A DNA stretch of 64,000 nt from contig NZ_WLYK01000001.1 in the NCBI RefSeq assembly GCF_009707545.1, positions 930,001 through 994,000 of the forward strand, given 5' to 3'. Origin of the DNA: Nakamurella alba (lineage in GTDB: Bacteria > Actinomycetota > Actinomycetes > Mycobacteriales > Nakamurellaceae). A program made the translations under genes and the position numbers. This document shows positions 57,979 through 60,270 of the stretch, piece by piece; the first letter of the stretch is position 1; each line of letters begins with the position of its first letter. The notes under the pieces were generated by a model. That model was not told where the DNA came from. It did no database searches and saw only the letters and a list, made by a program, of their open reading frames with translations.

Positions 57979-60270
57979 GTGCCGGACAAACCATCAGCCG
58001 CCATCGCTTCGGCAAAGGCGGCCGTGGCCGCCGTGTCAGCTGCGGAGTCGGCCCGGGGTGACGCCCCGGACCCGGCGGACGGGCCGGCCGCCTCTGCCGC
58101 TGACCCGGGAACTGCGGGAACGACGGCCGCGGACTCCACCACCTCCACCATCGTCATTTCTGACGAGCGGGCGATGGTCGGCCTGCTGGGCTCCCGCGAC
58201 GTCAACCTCCGTGCTCTCGAGGACGGTCTTGCCGCCGACGTGCACGTCCGCGGCAACCGGATCACCCTGCGCGGTGCCGCCGCCGACGTCGCGCTGGCCG
58301 AGCGGTCGGTGCGCGAGCTGCTGTCCCTGCAGGAGGGCGGAGCGCTGCTCACCCCGGACGCCGTGCGGCGCACCATCGGCATGCTGAGCACCCCCGCCTC
58401 CACGGCGGGGGCCGCGGCGGGGGAGTCGCCGTCGCAGGTGCTGGGCCTGAACATCGTGTCCCGGCGCGGCCGCACCATCCGGCCGAAGACGGTGAACCAG
58501 AAGCGCTACGTCGACGCGATCGACGAGAACACCATCGTCTTCGGCATCGGCCCGGCCGGTACCGGCAAGACCTACCTGGCGATGGCCAAGGCCGTACAGG
58601 CGTTGCAGGCCAAGCAGATCACCCGGATCATCCTGACCCGGCCGGCGGTGGAGGCGGGCGAGCGGCTCGGCTACCTGCCCGGAACTCTGTCCGACAAGAT
58701 CGACCCCTACCTGCGCCCGCTCTACGACGCGCTGCACGACATGCTCGATCCCGAGTCCATCCCGCGCCTGATGGCCGCCGGCACCATCGAGGTCGCGCCC
58801 CTGGCATACATGCGTGGCCGCGCGCAACCGTACGACGCGAAGGTGCTGACGCCGGAGGGTTTCCGGCCCATCGGCAGTCTGCAGGTCGGCGATCTGGTCA
58901 TCGGCTCGAACGGCGAGCCCACCCCCGTGCTCGGCGTGTACCCGCAGGGCGAACGCGAGGTCTACCGGGTCACCGCGCAGGACGGCTCCAGCACGATCGC
59001 CTGCGGCGAGCACCTCTGGACCGTCCGCACACCGGAGGACAAGCGCCGCGGCCGTTCCCGGACCCTGACGACGGCGGACATGATCGGCAACCTCCGGAGG
59101 GGGTATGTCCGGCGGTACGAGCTGCCGATGATGGCCCCGGCACAGCAAGTTGCCCAGCCGGTACCGATGGACCCGTACGCCCTCGGCCTGCTGCTCGGTG
59201 ACGGCTGCATCACCACCTCGACAACGCCTTCGTTCGCCACCAACGACCCTGAGCTCGCCGTGGCGCTGCAGGACGCGCTGGAACCTCTGGACGTCCAGGT
59301 CACCCACAAGGCCGATGACGACTGGGTGCTGCGGAACCGCAACGGTGCCCGCGCCGGTCTGCGGCTGGCGAACCCGGTGACGGCGATCGTCCGGGAGCTG
59401 GGGCTGGCCGGGGCCCGCTCGGCGACGAAGTTCGTCCCGGAATGCTATCTGCAGAACTCGGCGCAGGTGCGGCTCGCCGTGCTCCAGGGACTGCTGGACA
59501 CCGACGGCGGACCTGTCACCCAGATCGCGCGTTCCTGTCGGGTGCAGTACACGACCACCTCGCCGCGGCTCGCGGACGACGTCGAGTACCTCGTGCGATC
59601 ACTCGGCGGCGTCAGCTACCGGCGGGTCCGGAAGGCCGAGGGCCGGAAGCCGGGCCTGGCCAACGGTCGACCGGTCGGCTACCTGCACGACGCCCATCTG
59701 CTCGACATCCGGCTGCCGTCCGGTGTTGCCCCGTTCCGGCTCGCGCGCAAGACGGCGCTCTACGAGCGATCCGGTGGCGGTCGCCCGATGCGGTTCGTCG
59801 ACCGGATCGAACCGCTGGGTGTGATGGACACCCTGTGCATCCAGGTCGCGGCCGAAGATTCGCTGTACGTGACGGACGACTTCCTGGTCACCCACAACAC
59901 GCTGAACGACGCGTTCATCATCCTGGACGAGGCGCAGAACACGACGCCGGAGCAGATGAAGATGTTCCTCACCCGGCTCGGGTTCGGCAGCAAGATCGTG
60001 GTGACCGGCGACGTCACCCAGGTCGACCTGCCGGGCGGCCAGCGGTCCGGGCTGCAAGTGGTGCGGGAGATCCTCGAGGACATCGACGACGTGCACTTCT
60101 CGACGTTGACCAGCGCCGACGTGGTGCGCCACCAGCTGGTCGGGGCGATCGTGGACGCGTACGCGAAGTGGGATGACCGACAACCACCACCCGGCCAGGG
60201 GCCCGGCGGTGAGCGGCAGAACCGGTTCTACGGCCGCGGCCAGCAGCAGCACCGGGGCGGTGCCCGATGA
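57979..60270 (+). CDS. phoH: PhoH-like ATPase interrupted by an intein
   Basis: A 763-residue precursor; without the intein 404 residues, normal for the family. The N-terminal extension is Ala-rich. A KH-like part (about 58-110) precedes the ATPase with Walker A GPAGTGKT at 191-198. The intein covers residues 282-640, after PLAYMRGR, and the host resumes with [16 protein letters not shown] (Walker B near 646-653). PhoH is linked to YbeY and ribosome or RNA quality control. The GTG at 57979 has AAGGAAG 15 bases upstream; an in-frame ATG at 57898 lies within the promoter region and is less likely. The gene overlaps ybeY (ATGA). Confidence 0.93.
58822..59898 (+). mobile_element. Class 3 intein with LAGLIDADG homing endonuclease in PhoH
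   Basis: 359 residues. Position 1 is Ala, so the usual N-terminal nucleophile is missing. Block B ([15 protein letters not shown]) has H64 and W66, block F (MDTLCIQV) has C339, and block G (DDFLVTHN) has T357, H358 and N359; the +1 residue is Thr. Trp in block B, Cys in block F and Thr in block G are the WCT signature of class 3 inteins, in which the block F cysteine begins splicing. [10 protein letters not shown] (59182-59211) and [10 protein letters not shown] (59482-59511) are the two dodecapeptides of a LAGLIDADG endonuclease, both with the acidic residue kept. The frame is intact. Removal restores an unbroken PhoH sequence. Confidence 0.92.

Follow-up and report, generated by a model that had tools for sequence, protein, structure and literature searches.

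A class 3 intein with a LAGLIDADG endonuclease, predicted to splice and home, at one site of actinobacterial PhoH, and phage PhoH inteins at the same codon

In the stretch of Nakamurella alba DNA analysed here (the window: 64,000 nt of contig NZ_WLYK01000001.1, to which all coordinates refer), a long in-frame insert interrupts the phoH gene, and this locus raises the questions of what the insert is, whether it still moves and from where it came. Translation gives 359 residues without a stop, which split PhoH between MRGR and TLNDAF, a few residues upstream of the LDEAQN Walker B motif. The flanks belong to the PhoH ATPase domain, as the PF02562 profile matches the protein (8.6e-90) in two stretches, one on each side of the insert; the stop-free translation and the two-sided match bear out the 359-residue in-frame insert at MRGR/TLNDAF described in a previous, sequence-only reading of this DNA. 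In one frame the minus-strand reading of the intein stretch contains a stop, and overlapping minus-strand open reading frames exist. The insert is far beyond chance, because dozens of genomes hold full-length relatives, with 58-73% identity, at the same codon. A search of the whole Nakamurella alba genome gave a single match to the intein. The ligated PhoH is predicted to have 404 aa if translation begins at GTG 57979 and 431 aa if it begins at GTG 57898; thus, the ligated product of about 404 residues proposed previously is right for the first of these starts but not for the second. As to the previous statement that no phage genes lie nearby, the two neighbours of phoH that gave a family match are YbeY, which overlaps it downstream, and a MerR regulator upstream on the opposite strand. 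Phages nevertheless bear on the locus, since four viral contigs share the codon at which the PhoH intein is inserted. The features of the locus are listed in Table 1.

Table 1. Features of the phoH locus in window coordinates
Feature	Position	Strand	Basis or remark
phoH with in-frame intein	57898..60270	+	790 aa counted from GTG 57898; GTG 57979 also possible as start
Class 3 (WCT) intein, 359 aa	58822..59898	+	Translation, residue positions, alignment
N-terminal part of Hint domain, residues ~1-95, with Ala1 at 58822-58824	58822..59106	+	Profile, model, alignment
Cys61, block B, three before His64; aligns with DnaBi1 Asp62	59002..59004	+	Alignment, copy tally
Block B His64 and Trp66 (W of WCT, B:12)	59011..59019	+	Position check, alignment
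LAGLIDADG homing endonuclease domain, residues ~115-318	59164..59775	+	Profile, model, structure match, omega
LAGLIDADG motif 1 (10 residues, with D127)	59176..59205	+	Row alignment
LAGLIDADG motif 2 (10 residues, with D226/D228)	59476..59505	+	Row alignment
Cys339, block F nucleophile (C of WCT, F:4)	59836..59838	+	Position check, alignment
Thr357 (T of WCT, G:5), His358 and Asn359	59890..59898	+	Position check, row alignment
Thr+1, C-extein nucleophile	59899..59901	+	Junction reading, copy tally

Class 3 inteins are characterized by a set of three residues, Trp at B:12, Cys at F:4 and Thr at G:5 (PMC3196547). In the window intein, A1, H64, W66, C339, T357, H358 and N359 were all verified by position: residue 1 is Ala, an N-terminal Cys, Ser or Thr nucleophile being absent, and the Trp of B:12 stands two residues after the block B His (H64-L65-W66). 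Hand-counted alignment places W66 and C339 on W67 and C118 of 6BS8, with numbers that agree with those in PMC6195587. C339 also aligns with the engineered Cys of 6RIZ (F:4), and T357-H358 align with the Thr-His of both 6RIZ and 6RIX (G:5), the alignments with 6BS8 and 6RIY ending earlier. W66, C339 and T357 thus do fall on the B:12, F:4 and G:5 positions. The column of W66 holds Trp in all 82 intein rows, that of C339 holds Cys in all 81 rows covering it, and T-H-N stands in all 80 rows (of 82) that reach this column. Removal of four viral rows and two duplicates (L030=L010 and L040=L005) leaves 76 distinct bacterial copies, a set to which neither L187 (Nonomuraea) nor the shortened G376 form belongs. 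In these 76 copies the WCT set and THN are invariant; 75 begin with Ala1 (one has Ser), and 74 have Thr+1 (the other two have Ser and Pro, respectively). The class 3 (WCT) assignment that had been made from the letters is thus supported by sequence, profile, model and conservation. We give a probability of about 0.9 to the reading of the insert as a complete class 3 intein that includes a LAGLIDADG homing endonuclease, is located at one actinobacterial PhoH site and is predicted to splice and home.

On the model of the class literature, splicing would proceed by the class 3 route, most likely after translation. Cys339 would attack the bond between Arg and Ala1, the N-extein would then pass to Thr+1, and Asn359 would cyclise with the assistance of His358, so that the intein would be released and PhoH joined. 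Some copies depart from the usual residues at the junctions. In L041 (G018), the C-extein begins with Pro in place of Thr (THN/PLNDAF, codon CCT); this would be either an error in the sequence or a natural copy for which splicing along the usual route is not expected. The PhoH inteins L067 (G507) and L187 (Nonomuraea gerenzanensis) start with Ser1, a possible N-terminal nucleophile, and L067 retains the WCT set.

The middle of the insert has the features of a homing endonuclease. Two LAGLIDADG motifs bear acidic residues (D127 and D226/D228), and PF14528 matches the intein in two stretches (E=1.2e-13). An AlphaFold2 model of the intein (pLDDT 89.9, pTM 0.90; alignment A1 of 14 rows) shows a two-fold LAGLIDADG fold, which matches I-Tsp061I (2DCH) across residues 111-318 with a Z of 14.5. 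Over its whole length the model matches PI-SceI, the VMA1 intein (1VDE; Z 27.2, 321 aligned, rmsd 3.0 A), with which it shares the arrangement of a splicing domain plus a two-motif LAGLIDADG endonuclease; PI-SceI differs in being a class 1 intein of yeast in another host protein. Both endonuclease Asp residues are kept in 70 of the 76 bacterial copies, and D127 or D228 is lost in the other six (L078, L118, L125, L126, L129 and L131). The G376 genome has a shortened, 257-residue form of the intein without the first LAGLIDADG motif. In all 18 non-overlapping pairs compared (80-98.5% protein identity, closer pairs being passed over), the omega of the endonuclease part is 0.10-0.33 (NG86). Such low values would be expected if the element continues to need its endonuclease, and are not proof of cutting. 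Motif Asp residues, profile, fold match and conservation together uphold the description of the endonuclease as intact; the enzyme most likely cuts empty phoH alleles, by which the element would spread.

PhoH was found in 394 of 397 genomes of the order (E<=1e-60), and this near universality makes a wide comparison of empty and occupied sites possible. The intein is matched at E<=1e-40 in 54 of the 397. Reading of the loci verified an intein at the MRGR site in 51 of the 397, and the shortened G376 form, recognised through its split PhoH, is one more. The remaining three of the 54 matches are G024, whose locus lies outside the reading, and G283 and G325, in which inserts follow the GK of other proteins. 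All 17 genomes of the genus have PhoH; two sites are occupied (the window and G007) and 15 are empty, reading MRGR/T or MRGR/S. In a sample of the class, the intein has a match at E<=1e-40 in 29 of 394 genomes, in some of them in a protein other than PhoH. Taxa in which the PhoH site is occupied include Nocardioides islandensis, Micromonospora antibiotica, Blastococcus, Geodermatophilus, Isoptericola, Krasilnikoviella and Nonomuraea gerenzanensis. That the intein is competent in splicing and mobile is supported only indirectly, by the invariant WCT, His and Asn residues, the purifying selection on the endonuclease and the patchy occupancy of a single site. Weaker matches to the intein also occur within the genus in G009, G012 and G014, and in G005 (L016) and G006 (L025) they lie in DnaB-like frames interrupted after ARPGVGK; the latter two frames point to further intein loci in the genus.

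The window intein is more similar to that of Nocardioides islandensis (73.4%) than to the same-genus copy (67.4%), whereas for the exteins the order is reversed (65.8% and 77.6%, respectively). The 82-row intein tree pairs the window with Nocardioides (100/84), and in the 22-row intein tree the two share only a group of four that lacks internal resolution (85/87). In the extein tree all 17 members of the genus stand together (100/99), and the extein data reject a pairing of the window (L001) with Nocardioides (L002), which is a long branch there (p-AU 0.0012). With the intein data, the two same-genus copies as sisters are not rejected by the AU test (p 0.152 and 0.131); given these mixed results, some copies may be vertical, with losses. 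From such comparisons of sequences, transfer of the window-type intein between actinobacteria is likely, and it is moderately supported that the intein lineage moves among actinobacteria at one PhoH site. The intein tree also joins the Micromonospora group and Promicromonosporaceae (100/99). A strong case of transfer between these two was dropped, because this grouping is also compatible with the extein data (p 0.16, for the five-row group of L003, L034 and L126 plus the Promicromonosporaceae L008 and L009).

The alternative that the insert is an old actinobacterial PhoH element, inherited vertically and lost repeatedly without recent homing, would account for the correlation between intein and extein identities (Spearman 0.42; 3003 non-independent pairs from 78 rows including two duplicates), for the several family codes that retain their own intein groups in the tree, and for the three vertical groupings left unrejected by the AU tests. 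We nevertheless regard it as unlikely, as it has to be set against the clean empty sites in 15 of the 17 genus members, the opposite rankings of intein and extein identities, the rejection of the pairing of L001 with L002 by the extein data (with L002 a long branch) and the purifying selection that maintains the endonuclease.

A possible source of the bacterial intein lies in phages. A degenerate DNA pattern for [YF]MRGR/AQP, used to search IMG/VR, led to four viral contigs in which PhoH contains an intein that starts at the codon used in the window (L134=L136, L135=L148, L132=L149 and L133). Complete sequences are available for L134, for L135 and, in the form of L149, for L132, and L133 is covered to residue 74 only; Ala1, W, C and THN are all present in the three complete rows. 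These inteins share the FMRGR/AQP site with the window intein and differ from it in their phage-type gene surroundings. Around L136, five of the ten proteins tested belong to phage families (a DNA polymerase exonuclease subunit, a UvsX-like recombinase, an exonuclease, a phosphoesterase and PhoH), structural genes being absent among these ten, and L149 adjoins genes for terminase, portal, major head protein, head-tail adaptor and tail fibre. The single protein tested next to L133 gave no family match.

The L136 intein is 55.2% identical to the window intein, and rows outside the PhoH clade reach at most 44.7%. In the unrooted 82-row tree, one clade (100/99) unites the 50 bacterial PhoH rows and has L136 as its sister (100/96), and the intein of mycobacteriophage Phrappuccino, a long branch, comes next after L136 (99/94). 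The tree comprises 82 of 109 rows, all of them relatives of the window intein without class 1 rows; bacterial copies were thinned at 82% identity, and most viral loci were left out, those used being chosen non-randomly, by host protein. L148 and L149, which use the MRGR codon, fall elsewhere in this tree, among phage inteins inserted in Walker A. This placement suggested that the L148/L149 lineage might have invaded the MRGR site separately, as a second event; against it, a single clade of all MRGR-site inteins is not rejected (AU p 0.385).

A phage progenitor has been proposed for class 3 inteins as a whole (Tori and Perler 2011, as cited in PMC3196547). The sister relationship between the bacterial clade and a viral PhoH intein that uses the same codon suits a phage source without proving it, and suggests that chromosomes may have acquired the intein from the PhoH gene of a phage. 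As the tree is unrooted, the sister position alone gives no direction from phage to host, and the phage link depends on one contig, L136. A fuller scenario, which we put forward tentatively and hold to be somewhat less than an even chance, is that the bacterial PhoH intein results from one transfer out of phage PhoH by homing at the same site, with L136 and then Phrappuccino as successive outgroups, that it is still crossing family borders, and that Cys61 near Cys339 may make the maturation of PhoH sensitive to oxidation.

This last element comes from comparison with known class 3 structures. The splicing domain of the model superposes on 6BS8 with a Z of 20.1 (123 of 125 residues aligned, 1.4 A) and on 6RIX with a Z of 19.4 (126 aligned, 1.9 A). 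These two structures, DnaBi1 and M. chimaera DnaB1, share the fold of the splicing domain, the W-C-T set and the block B His with the window intein, but their host is DnaB and their chains have 125-145 residues and lack an endonuclease. In DnaBi1 of M. smegmatis, a Cys48-Cys118 disulfide blocks splicing and acts as a redox trap, and Asp62 stands three residues before the block B His (PMC6195587). By the hand-counted alignment, the window intein has Cys61 at the place of Asp62 and Val47 at the place of Cys48. The position of Cys61 is occupied by Cys in 58, Ser in 15 and Thr in three of the 76 copies, and a redox switch formed by C61 and C339 in the PhoH intein is put forward as a lead.

From this follows a second alternative, that the insert is class 3 by descent but splices conditionally or poorly, PhoH staying a precursor at times, for example when Cys339 is oxidised, perhaps together with Cys61. 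The precedent of DnaBi1 and the prevalence of Cys at the Asp62 place speak for such a block, even though Val47 takes the place of Cys48. Ser or Thr replaces Cys61 in 18 of the 76 copies, however, and Cys at this position is common in such inteins of other proteins too, so that it may serve catalysis or folding only; we consider conditional or impaired splicing improbable. The block B tally for inteins in other proteins includes some of L148-L184, whose block B letters are no measure of frequency because ECCDEHLW was among their scan patterns, and 16 separately listed rows are free of this bias. That the insert only looks like class 3 and is instead an intein of class 1 or 2, or a Hint domain unable to splice, is highly improbable: although the best PDB matches by sequence are gp41-1 inteins (6RIZ, which is engineered with the WCT set, and the native class 1 6QAZ), Ala1 cannot act as a class 1 nucleophile, W66, C339 and T357 are all present and invariant, and the class 3 structures fit the splicing domain as closely as given above.

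The PhoH class 3 intein itself is already known. The sequence-only reading had left open whether one had been described, and this point is settled by the class 3 PhoH inteins of M. fortuitum (OBK00716) and M. xenopi (EID13626) in Fig. 6a of PMC6195587; they resemble the window intein in class, WCT set and host protein, a likeness drawn from the published description and not from sequence. PhoH of M. smegmatis is also said to contain an intein (PMC7360933), and a survey of 2020 counted 1701 class 3 inteins, 82.5% of them with LAGLIDADG motifs (PMC7891396). A Campylobacter phage PhoH gene interrupted by inteins was reported in 2012 (PMC3322345). Our literature search, made mostly outside subscription papers, yielded no publication that connects PhoH inteins of phages and bacteria through a common insertion codon. 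As far as this search goes, the use of the same codon by phage and chromosomal PhoH inteins is therefore new. One insertion codon common to a chromosomal gene and to phage copies of the same gene provides a concrete pair of sites for testing exchange between phage and host.

Among 50,697 phage records, 812 have a match to the window intein at E<=1e-3, in each case with less than 60% identity, and host gene labels are known for the best 40 of the 812. PhoH inteins inserted in Walker A were found in L150 and L156 (viral; PhoH by reading) and in Vibrio phage 1.161.O (L193; PIN-PhoH by Pfam). They are of the same class 3 type as the window intein (Ala1, block B HxW, Cys and THN) but interrupt PhoH at the P-loop, GK/T, and not at MRGR/T. 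Many inteins of class 3 type among the viral loci L137-L184 likewise lie directly after the Walker A lysine (GK/T) of P-loop ATPases, which read as SNF2-like, RecA-like, DnaB-like, Lon-like and PhoH. Two phage genes labelled PhoH were tried as further PhoH hosts and dropped: the translation of GX15bay (MK557849.1) reads without a PhoH motor around the insert, and in Lactococcus phage LW81 (KY554777.1) the insert sits in sequence that does not read as PhoH. The PhoH labels of these two records may derive from the intein itself. Finally, in L011 (a Porphyromonadaceae MAG) and in the viral L012-L014, whose hosts read as terminase-like ATPases, the first ten intein residues are identical to those of the window intein and the rest is 28-37% identical, the identity of the starts having been selected, since AQPYDAKV was used as a scan pattern.
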